Shown here piece by piece: positions 1,441 to 27,205 of a stretch of 37,312 nt of DNA. The notes beneath the pieces are model-generated. The model made no database searches. It had not been told where the DNA came from and saw only the letters and a program-made list of their open reading frames with translations. The stretch covers positions 1 through 37,312 of IMG/VR virus record IMGVR_UViG_3300034166_001101; one strand, written 5' to 3'. The DNA is from a virus. How positions within the stretch are numbered: the first letter of the stretch is position 1; each line of letters opens with the position of its first letter. Made by a program: the position numbers and the translations under genes.

Positions 1441-1988
1441 ATATGGAAACCCGCAACCTTATTGATCACTATAAATATTGGACAGATGACGCGATCAGAG
1501 CTGATCTTGAGACTAAGCGCCATAACTTTTCTGTTATCTGCTGCAACATTGGTAACGATTTTAATATTGCAACCATTATACGGAATGCTAATGCGTTTCT
1601 GGCGAAAGAAGTAGCAATCTATGGGAATAAGAAATACGATAGGCGAGGGACTGTCGGTACTCATCACTACACAAACTTCCGTCATGTCAAAAGCATTGAC
1701 AATCTCGGCTCCTACATTGAAGAAATTGTTTCCCAGTATGAAGGCAAGGTTAAACTATTGGGAATTGATAATGTTTGTGAAGCAAAAGATATAAATGCAT
1801 TTGACTTTGACCCAAATGTGCATTATATTATGATCTTTGGGCAGGAGCAAATTGGTGTTCCAAAAGACGTTCTAGATATGTGTGATGAGATTCTTTTTAT
1901 AAAAATGTATGGAAGTGTTAGGTCTATAAATGTGGGAACGGCATCAGGAATTCTTATGTATGCTTATTGCTCACAAATTGTTCCTTGA
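1437..1988 (+). CDS. SpoU/TrmH-family RNA 2'-O-methyltransferase
   Basis: The 183-residue protein carries the three SPOUT motifs: motif 1 NIATIIRNANAF (43-54) with the catalytic Arg, motif 2 IMIFGQEQIGVP (131-142) and motif 3 IKMYGSVRSINVGTASGI (155-172), which together form the knotted SAM-binding fold. These enzymes methylate ribose 2'-OH in tRNA or rRNA as dimers. The substrate cannot be read from sequence. The absence of a long N-terminal RNA-binding domain suggests a tRNA-type enzyme. It overlaps the AdoMet decarboxylase by ATGA, so two genes that use AdoMet are translationally coupled. Its 3' end overlaps the convergent endonuclease gene by 25 bases. Confidence 0.88.
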   Translation: MNMETRNLIDHYKYWTDDAIRADLETKRHNFSVICCNIGNDFNIATIIRNANAFLAKEVAIYGNKKYDRRGTVGTHHYTNFRHVKSIDNLGSYIEEIVSQYEGKVKLLGIDNVCEAKDINAFDFDPNVHYIMIFGQEQIGVPKDVLDMCDEILFIKMYGSVRSINVGTASGILMYAYCSQIVP

Positions 1989-2746
1989 CTTTCTCTAAGT
2001 CTTCTTAATTTTTGTGCTTCCTTCATTTTAATTTTAGTTTTTTCTGACAATTTTGTTCCCGTTCTTTGTTTATTGTGTGCAATAATTTTATTTAATTCTT
2101 CTTCTGAATAAATTCTTTTTTTGGCAGCTTCAGATAATTTTTTCTTTGTTGCTTCAGATCTAGGTCCTATTTTTTTTCCCTTAAAAATTAAAGATAATTT
2201 TTTCTTTGTTTCCTCGGAAAGAGGTTTTCCTTTTCTACCCTTAAGACTTTTTGAAATATTTTGTTTATGAGTTTCTGTTAATTTTTTTCCTTTAAAAGAT
2301 TTAGAAATTTTTAATTTTGTTTCTTCAGAGACTTTACGATTAAGATTTGCTAAACGAATTTTTTCTATAATTTCTTTTGGTCTAGGACCTCTCATTTTTC
2401 CCTTTTTGGCCAATGATTGTTTTTTCTTTGTGGTTTCTGATGTTATCGGTGGAGCATCACCACCCAAAGTCAAATTATAACCACCATTATCCCAATCTAT
2501 AAAAGTTTGGTATTCCCATATAAAAATTGGTTCCATTACCCTTAATGTAAAATTTTTATCATTTGAAGAAAATAATTCTTCTATAACAAATTCATTTTGA
2601 CCATATTTTTTTATGGCATTAGATAAAGGTGTGTTTAAAATTTTTGTATTATGACAATGTTGTTTCCAGCGTTTTACAATACTTCTAGAAGTATATCCGA
2701 CATATTTTGGTTTGTCTTTTAATTTGATTAAATAAATATAGTGCAT
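1964..2746 (-). CDS. GIY-YIG homing-type endonuclease with NUMOD3-like repeats
   Basis: The protein is 260 residues. The N-terminus MHYIYLIKLKDKPKYVGYTSRS is a GIY-YIG nuclease start (here YIY...YVG). It is followed by about 90 residues of the nuclease core including EYQTFIDWDNGGYNLTLGG. The rest (about 105-245) is a series of lysine-rich repeats of the form SEETKKKLSLIFKGKK, the NUMOD3 DNA-binding modules of SegA/I-TevI-type enzymes. I start it at ATG 2746, which has AAAGG ten bases upstream, because an upstream in-frame start would lie in the leader hairpin. It is a free-standing mobile gene placed convergent to the methyltransferase and expressed from a T4-consensus late promoter. Confidence 0.9.
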   Translation of the reverse strand: MHYIYLIKLKDKPKYVGYTSRSIVKRWKQHCHNTKILNTPLSNAIKKYGQNEFVIEELFSSNDKNFTLRVMEPIFIWEYQTFIDWDNGGYNLTLGGDAPPITSETTKKKQSLAKKGKMRGPRPKEIIEKIRLANLNRKVSEETKLKISKSFKGKKLTETHKQNISKSLKGRKGKPLSEETKKKLSLIFKGKKIGPRSEATKKKLSEAAKKRIYSEEELNKIIAHNKQRTGTKLSEKTKIKMKEAQKLRRLRESQGTICEQ

Positions 2747-2769
2747 GGAAACATACCTTTCTGTGCAAG

Positions 2770-2798
2770 TTTGGTAGAAGCCACGAACTTCTACCAAA
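2770..2798 (-). promoter_or_regulatory. leader hairpin of the GIY-YIG gene
   Basis: A perfect 11-bp stem (TTTGGTAGAAG / CTTCTACCAAA, loop of seven) lies between the late promoter and the GIY-YIG start, ending 23 bases before the ATG. On the plus strand the hairpin is followed by CACCTTTTT, so it could alternatively stop plus-strand transcripts. Confidence 0.55.
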
Positions 2799-5542: not shown

Positions 5543-6037
5543 TTAAAATTCAGAAAACATTTTACACATTTTTGGCTCATTAGTCATATTTGGTATAATT
5601 GTTTTTGAACCACCCTTTGGGGGAGATGTTGCTGTACTTCTATAAGCAACAACTTCGTAAGTATAAGTAAGTCCTTTTGTGATTCCAGTATCAATGTATC
5701 CGCGCTCGTCACCACCCAAGACAGTCAAGCCAGTCAAAGGACTGTTTCCTCTGAAAAGTTGGAATCCTTCTGGATCTTGTGTAATTCCCCAATTCAAAAC
5801 AAATGCATCTTCGCCAAATTGATTGACATCAAATGATGCTATTTCCAAAGGAGTTGACCTTAATATTGGGCCTACTAAATTTGAAAATCCAAAACTATTG
5901 AAAGAACGGATTATAAACCCAAAAGAAAATCCAGATGTCAGTCCTCCAAATACATAGGAGGTTGTTCCTGTTCCAATATTTGCGGAAACTGTTGCCCCGA
6001 AAGTGTATGTATTTCCGTCAAAGTATATGGATGACAT
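5543..6037 (-). CDS. fibronectin-type-III-like tail/adhesin protein, short
   Basis: The product is 164 residues, almost all beta. The start (FDGNTYTFGATVS...SNLVGPI) resembles the N-terminal module of the two large proteins upstream (DGNTFTLGATLPG... and NGITLTRGLTLPG...), so all three probably share an attachment module. A second Fn3-like unit spans about 66-140 (FVLNWGITQDPEGFQLFRG, YIDTGITKGLTYTYEVVAY). It lies 13 bases downstream of the 864-residue paralogue and looks like a small tail or fibre accessory protein. No enzymatic residues are evident. Confidence 0.75.
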   Translation of the reverse strand: MSSIYFDGNTYTFGATVSANIGTGTTSYVFGGLTSGFSFGFIIRSFNSFGFSNLVGPILRSTPLEIASFDVNQFGEDAFVLNWGITQDPEGFQLFRGNSPLTGLTVLGGDERGYIDTGITKGLTYTYEVVAYRSTATSPPKGGSKTIIPNMTNEPKMCKMFSEF

Positions 6038-6050
6038 TTTTATTTCTTAA

Positions 6051-8645
6051 TCAGGGAGAACTAGTTATAGAAATACCTGCTAAAGTTGGCCCAGTAGTTG
6101 AAACCCAAGTTCCTACAATGTTGTTGTTTGCAACAGACAAAGTTTGACCATTGACGAATGTGGTATTTCCGGGATTGGTGGTGATTCTCCACCACCATGT
6201 GATTCCATTGGGTCCGGGAGCACCAGAGGCAACATAAGGAGCAAGCCAACTTATTCTGCTTACATCAGCAGTTGTTAAGGTGAATCCTCCAGTTTTTTCA
6301 TGAACTTCACCAACAGTATCATCTAACAATTGCATTTCTTTTATGAAACCAGTTGCTCCTTGATTATTATAAAACTTTAGTAAATATTTAGTACTATTTC
6401 CATCAGGAACAACACTTCTGTCTGTAAATGAAAATGCATTGAAATACAAAAGTGTTTTGGTTCCTGTAAGCATCAAATGGCGTACCATTTCATAGTAATA
6501 TGCAGAATTTCCACCAGCAACTGTAAATGTAACTCCATCATGAGGGTTGTACCCAACCACAGTATCAGAAAAACCAATGTTTGGGCGTTCAGCGGTAGTT
6601 CCATAATTATTGCTACTCCACTTGACATTTCCAATCCAAGGAGTAATTGGAAGATTTGGCGTTGCTCTTTTTGAACTTCTGACCATTTGCAATCCCATGG
6701 CAAAACTAGTCCACGCATTTCTGGGTGGTCTAGTGTCTCCTTCTACTAATCTCCACTGTGGGGAGCCAGGTAAACCTCCCGGAGTGCTTGGTTCTGGAGC
6801 AAAATAAATATAAGATGGATTTGAACCACAGATTCCCCATAAACCTCCAGCAATACCACCCAAAATACCATACAATTGTGGTGCCGCAGCATTTCCAAAA
6901 TTATATTTCCAATACTGTGGGTGACCATTTGTATCAGGAGGACCATCAATGGGTCCACCATCGGTTATGTATGACCATTCATATTCGGATAATGTAGCAT
7001 TAGGATATTTGATTAAAGTTTGTTCGTATACATCATTTAAAGCCCGCAGTTCATGAGCACGGTATATACCATTCCAAACGACATAATCATATCCAGCATA
7101 TATATTACCGGAATCACGGGTAACGTTCGCTATCGTAGCCCCCTCTGAAGCCATCCAATCATACCATGATGTTAATCCTTTATAAGATTGATAATATCTT
7201 GGATCAGTTACAATCGTAGCAGTTAAACCATCTGGAAAAGTAGCAAATGAATCATAACCACCAAACATTTCTGCATTGTTGACCAAATAATCAAATGTGG
7301 CTCCCGTTGCAGAGAATACATCCAAAATGGAATTCCACAAAGCTTTTGCATAAGAAACACCAGCATTAGGCCAAATTCCGGGGAATAGAGTACTGGTTTC
7401 TATTGTATCGTAATAATTAATATTATATGTGTATGTTATTCCAGAATCAAGATTTAAAACATCAGCATAATTAAAAAATAATCCAGAAGTATAAAAATAA
7501 ACCGGAAGGATAGCTCTTTTTCCTGGTGGAAGTTGCTTTAATAAATTTGCAATTCTTGCAATCTCTGTGTTTTGGGCTATTCCTTCAGCAAATCCTAATT
7601 GATTTCCTTCAAAACTTTGCATATCTGCGGTTGGACGCATACTTGGAACCATGTAAGTCAACCCATATGAATCACCAAAGGAAAGAAGTTTAGAATCATC
7701 AGCACACAAACCCTCCCAGTTTGCTATAAATTTGGTTGATTTAAATTGTGTTGCAATAGATCCAACTTCCAATTGCGGTCCACCAAAATAAGCAGTTCCT
7801 CCGGTGATCTCTACAGCAACAACAGCGAAAGCAGAAAATATTCCCCAAGTTTGTCCGGGGTTTGTTACGAATTGCGCTGCAAATCTTTGCCATCCACTTG
7901 TTCCAGTTGGATAAGTAGCATAACGAATGCTAGTTTCAGAATAAGATTCATTCAAAGCAAAATTACCTTGATCCACAGGTTCTATTTGACGAATATAAGT
8001 TGTCAATCCAGGTGCATGACCTATTCTAAATAGCAGATATTCAAATGTATGACCACTTATGTTGTGATAAAATGAATATGTATAAGTTGTTCCCGGTTGT
8101 AGGTTGTCAATCTTTCGACTAATTGTAATTAAATTTCCTCCGGGACTATTTGGAATAACTAATGACGAAACACTTATTTCTTCGTCTGGTGGGGCCAATT
8201 CAACGCTTTGATTATTAAAAGGTGGAAAAGCACTTCCACTCTGAAAGTTCCAAATAGGTCTGGTCAATTTATTACTCAAAGGAAACAAATTTACAGCATC
8301 TGTAGAAATTATTTGTTTTGGAATGGTTGTATCTGCCGTAAATCCATATTCCGCTTCGCTAAAGACACTAAATATAGGATTATATGGAAACGCAAATGGT
8401 ACTATATTAATAGAACTTCTCAGTTCGGGTTGTATGTATACAACAATTGGTCCCGCCCAACCAGAATAACCGGATAAATCATTAAAAGCAATCACAGAAA
8501 AATAATAACTAATACCAGGATTTATTCCAGTAATATTTGTAATAACTTCACCAGTAGTAATTGTACCCGGAAGAGTAGCACCTAAAGTAAATGTATTTCC
8601 ATCAATATCAATTTGATCAGATAATATGGGATTTAGATTAGGCAT
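6051..8645 (-). CDS. large tail fibre/tailspike-like protein, possible glycosidase (paralogue A)
   Basis: The product is 864 residues in blocks. Residues 1-75 are an Fn3-like module. About 150-310 is a carbohydrate-binding-type beta sandwich (LQPGTTYTYSFYHNIS..., GWQRFAAQFV, then YFGGPQLEVGSIATQF). About 330-790 is a large domain with TIM-barrel-like features, including LPPGKRAILPVYFY, FDYLVNNAEMFGG, YDYVVWNGIY and LLYFNAFSF. The C-terminal 65 residues (from TADVSRISWLAPY) are nearly identical to the next protein. The N-N-x-E sequence lies where a clan-A glycosidase would carry its acid, so a polysaccharide depolymerase is possible. It is read from CATAAATA 13 bases upstream. Confidence 0.8.
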   Translation of the reverse strand: MPNLNPILSDQIDIDGNTFTLGATLPGTITTGEVITNITGINPGISYYFSVIAFNDLSGYSGWAGPIVVYIQPELRSSINIVPFAFPYNPIFSVFSEAEYGFTADTTIPKQIISTDAVNLFPLSNKLTRPIWNFQSGSAFPPFNNQSVELAPPDEEISVSSLVIPNSPGGNLITISRKIDNLQPGTTYTYSFYHNISGHTFEYLLFRIGHAPGLTTYIRQIEPVDQGNFALNESYSETSIRYATYPTGTSGWQRFAAQFVTNPGQTWGIFSAFAVVAVEITGGTAYFGGPQLEVGSIATQFKSTKFIANWEGLCADDSKLLSFGDSYGLTYMVPSMRPTADMQSFEGNQLGFAEGIAQNTEIARIANLLKQLPPGKRAILPVYFYTSGLFFNYADVLNLDSGITYTYNINYYDTIETSTLFPGIWPNAGVSYAKALWNSILDVFSATGATFDYLVNNAEMFGGYDSFATFPDGLTATIVTDPRYYQSYKGLTSWYDWMASEGATIANVTRDSGNIYAGYDYVVWNGIYRAHELRALNDVYEQTLIKYPNATLSEYEWSYITDGGPIDGPPDTNGHPQYWKYNFGNAAAPQLYGILGGIAGGLWGICGSNPSYIYFAPEPSTPGGLPGSPQWRLVEGDTRPPRNAWTSFAMGLQMVRSSKRATPNLPITPWIGNVKWSSNNYGTTAERPNIGFSDTVVGYNPHDGVTFTVAGGNSAYYYEMVRHLMLTGTKTLLYFNAFSFTDRSVVPDGNSTKYLLKFYNNQGATGFIKEMQLLDDTVGEVHEKTGGFTLTTADVSRISWLAPYVASGAPGPNGITWWWRITTNPGNTTFVNGQTLSVANNNIVGTWVSTTGPTLAGISITSSP

Positions 8646-8658
8646 TTTATTACTTTAA

Positions 8659-8665
8659 TATTTAT
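8659..8665 (-). promoter_or_regulatory. late-type promoter motif ATAAATA
   Basis: The motif (within CATAAATA) ends 13 bases before ATG 8645, in the gap between the two large paralogues, so each could be transcribed separately. Confidence 0.45.
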
Positions 8666-8667
8666 GA

Positions 8668-11112
8668 TTATTGAATTTGTATTTGTATTCCTGCCAAAGT
8701 AGGTCCTGTCGTAGAAACCCAAGTTCCGACAATATTATTGTTTGCAACGGACAAAGTTTGACCATTCACAAAAGTAGTGTTTCCGGGATTTGTTGTGATT
8801 CTCCACCACCATGTGATTCCATTTGGACCCGGAGCACCAGAGGCGACATACGGAGCAAGCCAACTGATTCGGCTGGCATCAGCAGTTGTGAGTGTAAAGC
8901 CCCCAATTTTGTTATTAATTTCTTTCAAGGTTTCGTTGAATAGGTAAATATCATCAACATACGTGGTTAAACCTCTGGCCCAATAATTTCTATCGTTTAT
9001 TGGTACTCCGTTTTCAACTTTGTTGAAAGACGCAGGATTAAAATAACCTATTGATTGAACACCATGCAAACAAACATGTTTTACTAATTCATAATAATAA
9101 GCGGAATTCCCATCTCCCCCCAACGTATAACCATATACATCATAATATCCAGCCTTTGCATCAACCAAACCTATTGTTGGTCCTACTCTTGAATCATTAT
9201 AAACCGGAATTCCAGCATCTTTGACTGAAGTTATCCAAGGAGTGATGGGAATATTTGGACCACCTCTTTTAGCACTTCTTAAGGTTTGCATTGCCTGAAT
9301 AAAACTTGTCCAAGGACCCTTCGCCAACGTTGCTCCTACGGCACCCGAAACTGCTAATATTAGAAAGGTTGGATCATTTGGATTTACAACAACATTGCCC
9401 GGAGAAACAGTATTGTCAATTTGATTTATTTCACCGTATAACAATGGGGATGCTGCATTACCAACAATGGAAGTTGGCCAATGCGGATGGCCATTCACAT
9501 CGGGAGCACCATAAGTTGGTCCACCATCAGAAACATAATAATTATAATTTGATACAATTGATTTTGGATATCTTTGGAGAGTTGGATTTCCAAACATTTC
9601 ATTGTTTACCAAAGTTTGATACAATAAAGTTATATTATTCCAAACAACATAGGCGACTTTATCATTTGACTGATATGAGGCGGGGCCCAAAATATTTTGG
9701 ACTGTCACACCATATACATTCATCAAATCATTCCAAGAAGAAAGTCCTCTCCAAGAATTATAGTATCTCATGTCATTTACATAAGATGTGGTGGCTCCCT
9801 CAATTGCTGTAATACTAAAATTGGTTGGGAATCCTGATTCATTGTCACCAAAAACATAATCCAAAGTAATGCCTGTGGAACCAAAAATATTTAATAATTC
9901 ATTATAAAATTGAGAACCAGCAGAAAGTCCAAAATCACTCCAAGGACTTGGATAATAATTGGGTTCATTTATGTTTGGGAAAGGAAAAGTATTTCCCCAA
10001 TAATTTCTTGATGGTGCCCCGGCAACAGATACTCTATCACCCACCAAACTATACCAATCTTCTCTATTCATTATAGTTGGTTGAAATGCTCTTTTTCCAA
10101 TTGGTAATGATTGAAATTGTCCTAGAACTCTTTGAAGTTGATCTGTTCTTGTCCATCCCGCCAATTGATCAATGTTAGATGCATTGAAACTAACAAAAGG
10201 CCAAACATAAGTAATTCCATTATTAGGGCCATAATTCAACCAAGCATCTTGATTGTAAGTATATGTTGCCATGGTAGCACCATAACTTCCACCTCGCAAT
10301 TCAGTATAGCCAAAACTTCTAGAATATTCTGTTGCGGTTGAACCTTCTTCTAATTGAACACCCCAAATATAAAAAGTTGCACCAACATCTTGTGGTTCAC
10401 TATTATTTCTACTTAATGCGTATAAATCTATAGCGGTTTGATACGGTCCTGTTGTATAAGTTATTGCATATCTTTGCCAACCACTTCCAGTATATGTTAT
10501 CGCTGGTTCAATATTGTCTATTGGAGTAGTTCCGGTAACATTTCTAAATCTAAAACTTCCACCAGTGGATCCTAGAGTAATGTTTCTATAATAAGAAAAA
10601 GTATATGTTGTTCCCGGTTTTAAGTCAAATTGTTCTTGCCTCAATGCTGAATAAACTAAGCCAGGAGTACCACCGGGTGAGTAAAATAAAGTTGCTGTTT
10701 GTGTATCATCTGGAGCTGTATTGTCAGTTGAAACAACAGATAAATTTTGTAAAGCCCAACCATTAGAAGAATCAAAATCTTGACTATATGCTATTAAATT
10801 TTTGTTATTATCAGATTTTATCCATGAATTTCCAGACCATACCCAAGGAAATGGCCAATTCCAACTAAATGCATTAATAGCAGGTCTAATTTCTGGTTGT
10901 GTAAACACAACAATTGGACCAGCCCAACCAGAATAACCAGAGATATCGCTAAAAGCAACTACAGCAAAATAATATGTAGTTCCAACTTTTAATCCAGAAA
11001 TATTAGAATTTAAAATACCAGTTGTGGGGGTTCCGGGAAGAGTAAGACCCCGTGTTAATGTTATACCATTAATGTTTATTTTATCTGAGGGATCGGGATT
11101 TAAAGTAGGCAT
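8668..11112 (-). CDS. large tail fibre/tailspike-like protein, possible glycosidase (paralogue B)
   Basis: The product is 814 residues with the same architecture as its downstream neighbour: an N-terminal Fn3-like module ending SGYSGWAGPIVVFTQPE; a carbohydrate-binding-type domain (LKPGTTYTFSYYRNI, SGWQRYAITYT, WGVQLEEGSTATEYSR); a large central domain with LPIGKRAFQP, LDYVFGDNESGF, VAYVVWNNI, YYVSDGGPTYGAPDVNGHP and TPWITSVKDAG; and the shared C-terminus from TADASRISWLAPY. The central domain has diverged strongly from paralogue A, while the ends remain close, as expected for receptor-binding proteins under diversifying pressure. The conserved D/N-N-x-E is again a candidate catalytic site. 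It sits five bases downstream of the next gene. Confidence 0.8.
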   Translation of the reverse strand: MPTLNPDPSDKININGITLTRGLTLPGTPTTGILNSNISGLKVGTTYYFAVVAFSDISGYSGWAGPIVVFTQPEIRPAINAFSWNWPFPWVWSGNSWIKSDNNKNLIAYSQDFDSSNGWALQNLSVVSTDNTAPDDTQTATLFYSPGGTPGLVYSALRQEQFDLKPGTTYTFSYYRNITLGSTGGSFRFRNVTGTTPIDNIEPAITYTGSGWQRYAITYTTGPYQTAIDLYALSRNNSEPQDVGATFYIWGVQLEEGSTATEYSRSFGYTELRGGSYGATMATYTYNQDAWLNYGPNNGITYVWPFVSFNASNIDQLAGWTRTDQLQRVLGQFQSLPIGKRAFQPTIMNREDWYSLVGDRVSVAGAPSRNYWGNTFPFPNINEPNYYPSPWSDFGLSAGSQFYNELLNIFGSTGITLDYVFGDNESGFPTNFSITAIEGATTSYVNDMRYYNSWRGLSSWNDLMNVYGVTVQNILGPASYQSNDKVAYVVWNNITLLYQTLVNNEMFGNPTLQRYPKSIVSNYNYYVSDGGPTYGAPDVNGHPHWPTSIVGNAASPLLYGEINQIDNTVSPGNVVVNPNDPTFLILAVSGAVGATLAKGPWTSFIQAMQTLRSAKRGGPNIPITPWITSVKDAGIPVYNDSRVGPTIGLVDAKAGYYDVYGYTLGGDGNSAYYYELVKHVCLHGVQSIGYFNPASFNKVENGVPINDRNYWARGLTTYVDDIYLFNETLKEINNKIGGFTLTTADASRISWLAPYVASGAPGPNGITWWWRITTNPGNTTFVNGQTLSVANNNIVGTWVSTTGPTLAGIQIQIQ

Positions 11113-11117
11113 TTTAA

Positions 11118-11828
11118 TTAAGTTCTATAATAAATTTTGAATTCAGTTTCATTGATAGAATTATCATTCCATGCTAAGGTTACGCCATTGATTCCTGTAT
11201 CAATCAAAGTCAAACCAGAAGGGGTTGCTGGTACAGGAACAGTTTCCTCAGCATAATAAATTTTGAATTCTGTTTCTGTAGTGGAATTATCCTGCCAAGA
11301 TAGAGTTACATCATCTATTCCAATGTTTGTTGCAGTCAATCCGGTGGGTGCCTCTGGTGGTCCCGGAATAACCGAAGGAAGGGCAATTGCCCCACCATCC
11401 GTATCTGATTCCGATGTAAATGACCCAACTTCCTCAAGTTGTGCCATCTCCATGAATGCCGTGGCTTGCTCAATGGAAATTGCATGTCCGTGTTGATTTA
11501 CGAACATGTTCAATTCTTGATTGAAGGCATACACCAAACCATTGTAATTAAACTGTTGTGGTAGCGAACCAACACTTTGCTTGGCTTCCAAAAGAACCTT
11601 ATTTTGATTTTTTGATAGAGTATTGTAATCAAAAATTTTGGCAATTGCTTTGGTCAAGGAATCATTCTTTGAATTTCTCGGATTATTCAAAGATTCGACA
11701 AAATATGAGAACTTTTCCTTTCTTTTCTTCTCGGTATATTGAGAACTATAAAAATACACAGGTGTTCGATCATCGGACTTTACGGGTCTGTTAAAGTTGT
11801 CGATGAATGATTGATTGGGGTGTTTCAT
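11118..11828 (-). CDS. tail-associated protein with two short Fn3 repeats
   Basis: The product is 236 residues. The N-terminal 130 residues are charged and helical (YTEKKRKEKFSYFVESL..., then FNQELNMFVNQHGHAISIEQATAFMEMAQLEE). After a Gly/Ser/Pro linker come two tandem copies of a half fibronectin module, GLTATNIGIDDVTLSWQDN...ETEFKIYY and GLTLIDTGINGVTLAWNDN...ETEFKIYY, ending at the C-terminus. The repeats are cut to the first strands of an Fn3 domain, so they may complete a fold with the Fn3 module of the next protein. A CTAAATA copy lies 34 bases upstream of the ATG. Confidence 0.75.
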   Translation of the reverse strand: MKHPNQSFIDNFNRPVKSDDRTPVYFYSSQYTEKKRKEKFSYFVESLNNPRNSKNDSLTKAIAKIFDYNTLSKNQNKVLLEAKQSVGSLPQQFNYNGLVYAFNQELNMFVNQHGHAISIEQATAFMEMAQLEEVGSFTSESDTDGGAIALPSVIPGPPEAPTGLTATNIGIDDVTLSWQDNSTTETEFKIYYAEETVPVPATPSGLTLIDTGINGVTLAWNDNSINETEFKIYYRT

Positions 11829-21675: not shown

Positions 21676-21703
21676 ATTATAACACGACTTTGGGTTTATG
21701 CAA
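21676..21703 (-). promoter_or_regulatory. sigma70-type promoter, TTGCAT-16-TATAAT, minus strand
   Basis: TATAAT occupies 21676-21681 and TTGCAT 21698-21703 (minus strand), with 16 bases between. Nine bases follow before TTG 21666. The -35 box overlaps the stop codon of the upstream late gene, separating an early unit from a late one. Confidence 0.6.
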
Positions 21704-22721
21704 TACCCAAATATGTAGCATACTTACCAAGGGCATTTTTTACCAAACCAATATTAAGTTTGATAGATTTGCCAGTCTCACCAACTTCTTCGGAGTCACG
21801 GTCATCACCGCCAAAACCTAATGGGAAAGGTGGTTTTGGTGGTGTTTCTGGTTTTGGAGTAGTCTTTTGAGGTGGGGCTTTGGGTGGTGCTTTTGGTGGT
21901 ACTCTTTGTGGTGCGGGCTTAGGCTGTGGTTTGGGAGCAGGCTTAGGTGCAGGCGCTGGTTCTGGAGTAGGCTTGGGTTGTGGTTTAGGCGCAGGGGCGG
22001 GTGTGGGTGCTGGTTCAGGAGCAGGCGCAGGCTTAGGTGCAGGAGCGGGTTCTGGAGCAGGCTTAGGTTTTGGCTTGGGAGCAGGAGCGGGTGCAGGAGC
22101 AGGAGCGGGTGCAGGCGCTGGTTCAGGGGCAGGCTTAGGTTGTGGTTTGGGCGCTGGTGCTGGAGCGGGTCTAGGTGCAGGAGCAGGAGCGGGTTCTGGA
22201 GCAGGCTTAGGTTGTGGTTTAGGTGCTGGTGCTGGAGCAGGTGTTGGAGAAGGAGCAGGAGCAGGAGCGGGTGCTGGAGTGGGCTTTGGTTTTGGTGGCG
22301 TTGATGGAGAAGGCTTTGGTTTTGGTGGCGCAGGTGGAGCAACAACACCACCCTGAATTTGTGCCATTGTTTGTTCTGCTCTTGTGGCTGCTTCACTAGC
22401 AGCCTTAATAGCATCATCACCAACTAAATTTAATTCTTTTTGCACGGCAGCAATTAAATCTTTGCCTTTCAGTCCATTTTCTGCAAATTTTGCTGCTGTT
22501 GTTTCAATTTGCTTTAGGGCTTGCTTTGACAAAACTTCCCCAACGGCTGCTTTGGCTCCTTGTTTTGCTGTTTGACCTAAAGCCACACGCAAGCCCCCAC
22601 GAATAAGAGCCGTAACAGATTCTAGAAATAAACCAAATGAATAGTTGTTGGCTAATTGCTCGCCATCATTTAATCGATTATAGCGTTCTTCTAAAATTTG
22701 TTGTATGAGTTTATTTTTCAT
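21696..22721 (-). CDS. Pro/Ala-repeat protein, putative virion component
   Basis: The product is 341 residues. An amphipathic N-terminus ([20 protein letters not shown], containing ILE) is followed by a hydrophobic/glycine segment ([20 protein letters not shown]) and helices ([20 protein letters not shown]). Residues about 125-300 are a near-pure repeat of [15 protein letters not shown] type, likely an extended rod. The C-terminal 35 residues form a small domain ([20 protein letters not shown]). ATG 22721 is taken instead of a TTG 12 bases upstream. It is the third of three consecutive low-complexity genes and could be an internal or ejected protein. Confidence 0.75.
21875..22340. repeat. imperfect short tandem repeats coding for Pro-Ala/Pro-Lys
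   Basis: This GC-richer stretch is made of repeating GGTGCAGGAGCGGGT- and GGCTTAGGTTGTGGT-like units (plus strand), encoding the Pro/Ala/Lys rod on the minus strand. Units vary by single bases and are arranged in larger blocks, so slippage and recombination between phages are likely. Confidence 0.75.
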
Positions 22722-22742
22722 ACTTTTAAACAATCCATTACA

Positions 22743-26764: not shown

Positions 26765-26842
26765 CAAAGGATGTGGACCTAAATTTTCTGTTGGGTGGTA
26801 CTTCGAAGACTCAAGAGAAAATGCGGTATCCAACATCCTTTG
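26765..26842 (-). ncRNA. long imperfect stem-loop RNA or structured leader, unknown
   Basis: The arms CAAAGGATG/CATCCTTTG (9 bp), TGG/CCA, ACC/GGT, ATTTTCT/AGAAAAT (7 bp) and TTG/CAA pair in order with small bulges, covering 78 bases. A TATAAATA promoter just upstream on the minus strand (26850-26857) would begin a transcript at the base of this stem. The product could be a stable small RNA or the 5' leader of the resolvase gene. It contains no convincing reading frame. Confidence 0.5.
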
Positions 26843-26849
26843 GCAAAAA

Positions 26850-26857
26850 TATTTATA
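26850..26857 (-). promoter_or_regulatory. late promoter TATAAATA upstream of the stem-loop
   Basis: An exact T4 late consensus on the minus strand, placed so that transcription would start near 26843, at the foot of the 78-base stem-loop. Confidence 0.55.
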
Positions 26858-26875
26858 TGCAAATTTTATTATACC

Positions 26876-26913
26876 AATAAAAATCCCGGTTTTTCAGTCG
26901 CGGGAAAACCGGG
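26876..26913 (-). terminator. intrinsic terminator of the tmRNA gene
   Basis: On the minus strand CCCGGTTTT (26913-26905) pairs with AAAACCGGG (26893-26885) in a 9-bp stem, followed by ATTTTTATT. It is the strongest terminator in this part of the window. Confidence 0.8.
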
Positions 26914-26926
26914 AAACCCCACTGCT

Positions 26927-26965
26927 TTAAGCAGCCATCCGCAATGGTGCGGCTTTTATATTTGC
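26927..26965 (-). other. tmRNA tag reading frame, ANIKAAPLRMAA-stop
   Basis: GCA AAT ATA AAA ... GCT GCT TAA gives a 12-residue tag starting with the resume Ala codon and ending MAA. It has the Ala-Ala end recognised by ClpXP-type proteases in known tags. TAA lies in the hairpin CTGCT-TAA-AGCAG. Confidence 0.85.
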
Positions 26966-26979
26966 AACTGTTTATTTAC

Positions 26980-27003
26980 GACACTTGTTACCCGTGTCGG
27001 GTA
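26980..27003 (-). other. tmRNA pseudoknot PK1
   Basis: TACCC/GGGTA and GACAC/GTGTC interlock (order TACCC-GACAC-GGGTA-ACAA-GTGTC) as a classic H-type pseudoknot ending 14 bases before the resume codon, close to the known spacing for PK1. Confidence 0.85.
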
Positions 27004-27205
27004 TCTACTTCTTCAATACTCTGCACTGATCGATGCCTGTCGGACCCGTGAATGGATCCGGGGAGATTCGAACTCCCGTGTCATATGCATTTCTATCCGA
27101 GATCAACAATACCAAAAGCGCGACGAGGGGCCTGCACCCATGCTCAACCACTGCTTGCAAGTCAATGGTCCTAGTCAGCATCACACACTGAACCGCGCAT
27201 AAAAT

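Follow-up and report, generated by a model that had tools for sequence, protein, structure and literature searches.

Phage depolymerases of the CBA120 TSP4 and Klebsiella K2-2 TSP type combine an enzyme-like part with a sandwich domain, and their catalytic parts are beta-helices. In TIM-barrel glycosidases of clan GH-A the catalytic Glu follows the fourth barrel strand; in GH42 a catalytic Glu is found after strand 4 and a Glu after strand 7. Beta-sandwiches completed by a second chain occur in donor-strand complementation of pili and in laboratory fragment complementation of the fibronectin Fn3 domain. For T4-like fibres, e.g. fibritin, module swapping between conserved parts has been described (PMC3797505); compared with that account, what changes hands at the locus analyzed here is a core of glycosidase type, with the C-terminus left in place. 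Modular enzyme-bearing phage fibres are already known; the barrel family reported and the split-domain joint proposed below would be new forms of this kind.

The window, meaning the whole stretch of DNA that was analyzed, comprised 37,312 nucleotides of an IMG/VR record. It was assigned to a T4-like phage, as its DNA polymerase shares 41.5% identity with the Synechococcus phage S-H9-1 enzyme along the full length and it has T4-type replication genes (DnaB-type helicase, RecA-type protein, Thy1 and ribonucleotide reductase). A second IMG/VR contig was 100% identical across the shared 17 kb, which makes misassembly of the window an improbable source of the fibre genes. Other features were recorded along the same stretch. 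A tmRNA gene (26836-27143, minus strand), called permuted by both ARAGORN and Rfam RF04321 (52.7 bits, cut-off 47), encodes the tag ANIKAAPLRMAA and adjoins tRNA-Tyr and tRNA-Asn genes; the permuted form is noteworthy in a phage. A GIY-YIG homing-endonuclease-like gene with NUMOD3 motifs (1964-2797, minus strand) lies beside a tRNA-Gln gene, and a 345-aa protein (21696-22733, minus strand) contains a long Pro-Ala-Pro-Lys repeat tract.

The fibre genes sit between a gene whose product starts MKHPNQSF, referred to below as the anchor, and a nucleotidyltransferase-like gene. Two barrel genes were found in the window, three at the G001 locus and three at G008; at G001 the same anchor and nucleotidyltransferase genes frame the locus, where short adapters and Fn3 proteins are also encoded. 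Anchor, Fn3, CBM, barrel and C-terminal module follow one another in this order repeatedly, with gene boundaries at varying points. In the window, both reading frames were recovered at exactly the positions given in an earlier note on this DNA: P0002, an 814-aa fibre protein (8668..11112, minus strand), comes first in coding-strand order and is followed by P0001, an 864-aa fibre protein (6051..8645, minus strand). Each consists of a half Fn3, a CBM-like sandwich, a predicted barrel and a C-terminal sandwich.

Overall, P0001 and P0002 were 42% identical, with the likeness concentrated at the two ends (62% over the N-terminal 80 residues, 17-47% between, and 98% for P0001 residues 801-860). The conserved C-terminal modules, delimited by identity, codon comparison and tree grouping, correspond to P0002 residues 737-812 (8677..8904, minus strand) and P0001 residues 786-861 (6063..6290, minus strand). 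Across the 73 codons from GGFTL, 41 were identical, 31 carried silent changes and 1 a replacement (DNA identity 84.5%), which bears out the earlier description of near-identical C-termini with mostly silent DNA changes. Silent change in this stretch (31/73 codons) exceeded that of the flanking genes when the window was compared with G001 (52/284 and 36/238 codons); the shared C-terminus is therefore no recent copy, and selection holds its protein sequence. The central divergence noted before is real, but it extends past the approximately 450 residues proposed, to roughly residues 81-735. The GGP...PDxNGHP block is present in both proteins as described, but it is no family feature, and the related G001a reads GNP...AGNP.

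To place the cores, P0002 was compared in 60-residue blocks with P0001 and with a relative from another contig, L035. Residues 261-740 of P0002 were 47-77% identical to L035 and 18-46% to P0001, whereas residues 741-800 were 98% identical to P0001 and 42% to L035; in a sliding comparison the identity flips at about residue 740. Maximum-likelihood trees of the core and of the C-terminus (18 members) gave different groupings. The core of P0002 grouped with those of other uncultured phages (L035, L041, L024 and L026; support 100/100), and for the C-terminus the partners were P0001 and G001a (support 96/97). By AU test on the core, a P0001+P0002 clade was rejected (p 1e-45), as was P0001+P0002+G001a (p 7e-5), and on the short C-terminal set a grouping of P0002 with L035, L041, L024 and L026 was rejected (p 0.009), all groups except P0001+P0002 having been picked after the tree was known. 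Because core and C-terminus group differently, the P0002 gene is a mosaic.

A simple in-genome duplication followed by divergence, in which selection or gene conversion kept the ends alike and no core was imported, would suit the adjacency of the two genes, their common domain order and the strong purifying selection on the C-terminal ends. It is at odds with the closeness of the P0002 core to L035 over residues 261-740 and with the conflict between the two trees, and we regard it as highly improbable. As read from the sequences, the P0002 core comes from a different lineage, and cores have been exchanged between conserved ends as opposed to diverging after a local duplication. The two genes were called paralogues with diverged cores in the earlier note; the conserved ends and different cores stand, and simple divergence does not. 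In a separate relative, L024, a second and more C-terminal swap was considered (its last ~35 residues are 88-100% identical to L040/L047 and 20-24% to L026); the usual grouping was not rejected in a whole-module AU test (p 0.54), and that swap is suggestive only.

The fold of the P0002 core (about residues 299-735; 8908..10218, minus strand) was predicted from 20 sequences (AF2 model m11c6403d2a27; mean pLDDT 82.6, pTM 0.87). In the model, alternating helices and strands form a TIM-type barrel, a beta-sandwich makes up the C-terminal end, and there is no right-handed beta-helix; P0002 would thus differ from the beta-helix depolymerases in carrying a predicted barrel instead. The conserved C-terminal module is predicted to lie within this post-barrel sandwich (strands in model residues 497-555, block pLDDT 86-96); it may in addition have the trimerisation or receptor role suggested before. 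In VIA-align comparisons the first 12 rows were all GH42 or other beta-galactosidases, the best being 6lvw (Z 14.9, rmsd 4.3, 370 residues aligned), and the GH42 and clan GH-A structures (6lvw, 4uoz, 8ibt) shared the predicted arrangement of barrel then beta-sandwich, the GH42-type layout, with Z of 13.0-14.9 in the first 11 rows and up to 381 residues aligned. Lower rows included GH35 (~Z 11.4), a putative alpha-galactosidase (11.3), GH5 (~11.1), PgaB (10.7) and Cwp19 (10.1). Unlike these GH42 enzymes, to which identity was 6-9%, the predicted barrel is carried by a phage fibre, next to CBM-type and Fn3 parts.

Foldseek alone gave no match to the P0002 core below E 0.001 in the PDB, the best being an alpha-galactosidase at 1.3e-3, and among viral structures (BFVD) the best row was a chlorella virus protein (E 7.5e-4), with none of the next below 0.04. 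Sequence searches of Pfam, PHROGs and the PDB with alignments A3 and A8 (20 members) returned no credible match to the core and no Pfam glycosidase, and the GH42 profile PF02449 had no match in the window at E<=10; membership in a known glycosidase family by sequence was ruled out on these grounds. The P0001 barrel core (about residues 312-785; 6291..7712, minus strand) aligns with that of P0002. The full-length P0001 model was weak (pLDDT 56.5), and though it still aligned with barrel glycosidases (best BlMan5B, Z 10.8), it was set aside as a sole basis for the fold.

The structure-search check proposed for the core thus returned a predicted barrel with GH42 nearest. The suggestion of a TIM-barrel glycosidase holds for the fold, as the P0002 model supports a glycosidase-type barrel nearest GH42, then GH35, alpha-galactosidase and GH5; activity stays a prediction of that model. 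Four residues were invariant in all 20 cores of alignment A8, one of them a partial sequence: D101, W133, G137 and E167 in the numbering of the P0002-core model, which are residues 359, 391, 395 and 425 of P0002. An acidic motif common to both proteins had been given before as D/N-N-x-E; such a motif is present but is better written [D/N]-x-E, reading D423-N424-E425 in P0002 (9838..9846, minus strand) and N457-A458-E459 in P0001 (7269..7277, minus strand), each a candidate catalytic site from conservation in the aligned relatives. Its first position is D in 17/20 cores and N in the other three (P0001, G001a and L049); the Glu is present in all 20. In the model the invariant Glu lies three residues beyond strand 161-164, on what is predicted to be the active-site end of a barrel of this fold. 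By our own count that strand is the third of the barrel, and GH-A enzymes use the fourth, so GH-A catalysis is not claimed.

From the predicted fold and the invariant acidic residues, we infer that the barrel may hydrolyze its target. Alternatively, the proteins may be carbohydrate-binding fibres whose barrel lost or never had enzyme activity and serves recognition only. The replacement of D by N at the D-x-E in 3/20 cores (P0001, G001a, L049) would accord with this, as would the lack of a sequence match to any active glycosidase family; against it stand the Glu and D101, both kept in 20/20, and further conserved positions (W, Y, N and K), several of which fall in loops or just past strands. 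We consider an inactive barrel rather unlikely. The label depolymerase is plausible for P0001 and P0002 on the modelled fold, and would denote a type other than the beta-helix tailspike.

Ahead of the barrel in P0002 lies a CBM-like beta-sandwich (about residues 107-258; 10339..10794, minus strand). This region matched PF02018 at 15.7 bits, below the curated cut-off of 25.9, and phrog_1330, a tail protein, at E 1.3e-7, and it was 36% identical to a virion structural protein of phage S-TIM54. The corresponding sandwich of P0001 (residues 117-295; 7761..8297, minus strand) was delimited by VIA-align of the P0001 model, with a Pa193 tail fibre at Z 9.3, CBA120 TSP4 at Z 8.7 and a CBM4-2 at Z 8.3. 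The likeness to CBM4/9 and CBM16 is thus one of predicted fold (Z about 8), PF02018 being weak and under its curated cut-off, and carbohydrate binding by the sandwich is putative; the likeness to CBA120 TSP4 extends to the pairing of a sandwich with an enzyme-like part. C-terminal extensions of two longer relatives matched cyanophage tail proteins and E. coli side-tail-fibre proteins. Together, the phrog_1330, S-TIM54 and C-terminal-extension matches and the fibre-type sandwiches point to a place in the virion for P0001 and P0002 as tail-fibre proteins.

Scans of viral contigs yielded further full or near-full members of the family, all from uncultured contigs. In 50,697 phage records searched for cultured relatives, neither the DNA nor the barrel core had a counterpart, the matches being confined to the CBM region (S-TIM54, 36%) and the C-terminal extensions of longer relatives; neither the 236-aa anchor nor the 282-aa adapter of G001 had a match in those records. 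A scan of genome_contigs for cellular relatives with A3 gave 31 pattern matches and no relative. Giant proteins of 1500-2500 aa adjoin fibre genes at four loci (L024:3-4613, L026:1567-7467, L040:1849-7761 and L058:2-7534) and match the barrel model's C-terminal part weakly and more than once, and L048:2001-9080 had a clearer single match; these proteins likely represent a wider, more distant branch of the barrel family. At L040 and L047 (~7740-7761), which are from one metagenome, a barrel is seemingly divided between overlapping ORFs: the upstream ORF of 1970 or 2007 aa ends in an apparent first barrel strand and a 470-aa ORF has the remainder; the division may be genuine or may stem from a frameshift or an assembly error. 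Apparent frameshifts, probably assembly errors, divide the G002 fibre gene (L002/L005 8001-10476) into several ORFs.

The N-terminal Fn3 modules of P0001 and P0002, described before as close to each other, are so (62% over 80 residues), but in each protein the sequence covers just the C-terminal half of an Fn3 domain. Residues 1-75 of P0002 (10888..11112, minus strand) aligned to positions 43-75/84 of the Pfam fn3 profile, and residues 1-75 of P0001 (8421..8645, minus strand) to 42-72/84; these matches were below the curated cut-off, and a complete seven-strand Fn3 (PF00041) was absent from the N-terminus of either protein. The upstream partner, the 236-aa MKHPNQSF protein (11118..11828, minus strand), covers the complementary positions 2-41/84. 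Using a local Fn3 model of 91 positions, built from intact domains of these loci, the halves were placed at 49-91 in P0002 and 47-87 in P0001, and the 236-aa protein was found to end in two first halves, at residues 158-197 (11238..11357, minus strand; model 1-40) and 200-234 (11127..11231, minus strand; model 1-35), the second ending 2 residues before the stop. In the window this protein with two N-halves is followed by two full fibres. Proteins of 474 and 278 aa elsewhere also carry two N-halves with only one fibre directly after, so a match between the number of N-halves and of fibres is no general rule. A 164-aa protein (5543..6037, minus strand) has, by the local model, one half and one full Fn3 and no barrel.

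ORFs of >=150 aa in all loci, near-duplicate contigs included, contained 25 intact domains, 16 N-halves and 17 C-halves by the local model. As distinct ORFs, 16 began with a C-half and 11 ended with an N-half; a C-half match inside an unrelated 728-aa ORF (L051:579-2765) was left out of the count of 16. The break fell at the same loop in 11/11 N-half ORFs (model position 34-38/91), at most 4 residues from the stop. In 9 of the 11 the next ORF opened with a C-half by the local model. At a tenth junction (278 to 895 aa, L029) the 895-aa protein was not scored as a C-half by the model, though it resembles one by eye, and after the eleventh N-half ORF (294 aa, L049) comes an anchor-type protein with no C-half. 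Gaps at ten junctions examined were -1 to 5 bases in nine and 24 in one, with frames of +1 (six junctions), +2 (three) and 0 (one). The varied frames and short gaps favor coupled but separate translation.

A single chain made by programmed frameshifting or stop bypass, with the Fn3 not truly split, could account for the 6/10 junctions that share a 1-base gap and a +1 frame. Such a chain is hard to reconcile with the differing frames, with the further in-frame stops at the frame-0 junction, or with the own ATG of every downstream ORF, several with a purine-rich stretch upstream; it was judged improbable. Another reading is that the half-Fn3 folds as a small domain in its own right, such as a homotrimeric cap, and that its fit to the upstream half records only a history of gene fission. 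The surplus of C-half over N-half ORFs (16 vs only 11) favors this, and C-half proteins of 164, 301, 1093 and 261 aa follow genes without an N-half. The constant position of the break in 11/11 N-half ORFs and the coupling of genes -1 to 5 bases apart at 9/10 junctions count against it, as do L035 and L043, in which anchor and CBM lie on one chain, need no joint and had no Fn3 match. An independent half-domain is a serious possibility, a little short of an even chance.

Joining of anchor and fibre chains by completion of a shared Fn3 domain is possible rather than probable. On sequence evidence, the completion proposed here would concern a naturally divided Fn3 whose halves are encoded by neighbouring phage genes, in distinction to the pilus and fibronectin cases. 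The fibre would supply strands C' to G, and the C-terminus of the preceding anchor probably strands A to C. At most loci the Fn3 would be cut in the C-C' loop, and at three others (L024, L026 and L041) the break is in the CBM, apparently after its first strand; there NLISFSQD or NLIAFSQD and a short tail close the upstream ORF, and the remainder of the CBM opens the barrel ORF. The anchor would offer at least one half-domain, and any fibre with the matching half might plug in. A search of openly available journal papers, by title and abstract opening, found no description of split Fn3 domains in phage fibres.

The reading we consider probable is that these are fibres whose barrel, of glycosidase type, is swapped while the conserved ends stay in place. 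P0001 and P0002 would be alternative or co-mounted tail fibres of an uncultured T4-like phage, whose CBM-type sandwich, TIM barrel and C-terminal sandwich most likely bind and cut host surface polysaccharide. The family would be exchanged at one variable locus; the trees show that cores arrive by recombination between conserved ends, and each exchange could alter the target bound or cut while the virion-fitting parts are kept, with a presumed use in host range. More tentatively, the same loci may be read as modular fibres built from separately translated chains that clip together via split beta-sandwiches, a natural plug-and-socket for glycosidase-bearing host-recognition proteins. If the split-domain joint is real, it would be a means by which virion parts are coupled between molecules in nature, and a possible protein coupling tool. 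If the barrel and exchange reading is right, it would add to phage fibres a barrel family that is new in sequence, falls outside all family libraries tried and is organized for exchange, and would show how uncultured phages might retool host recognition.
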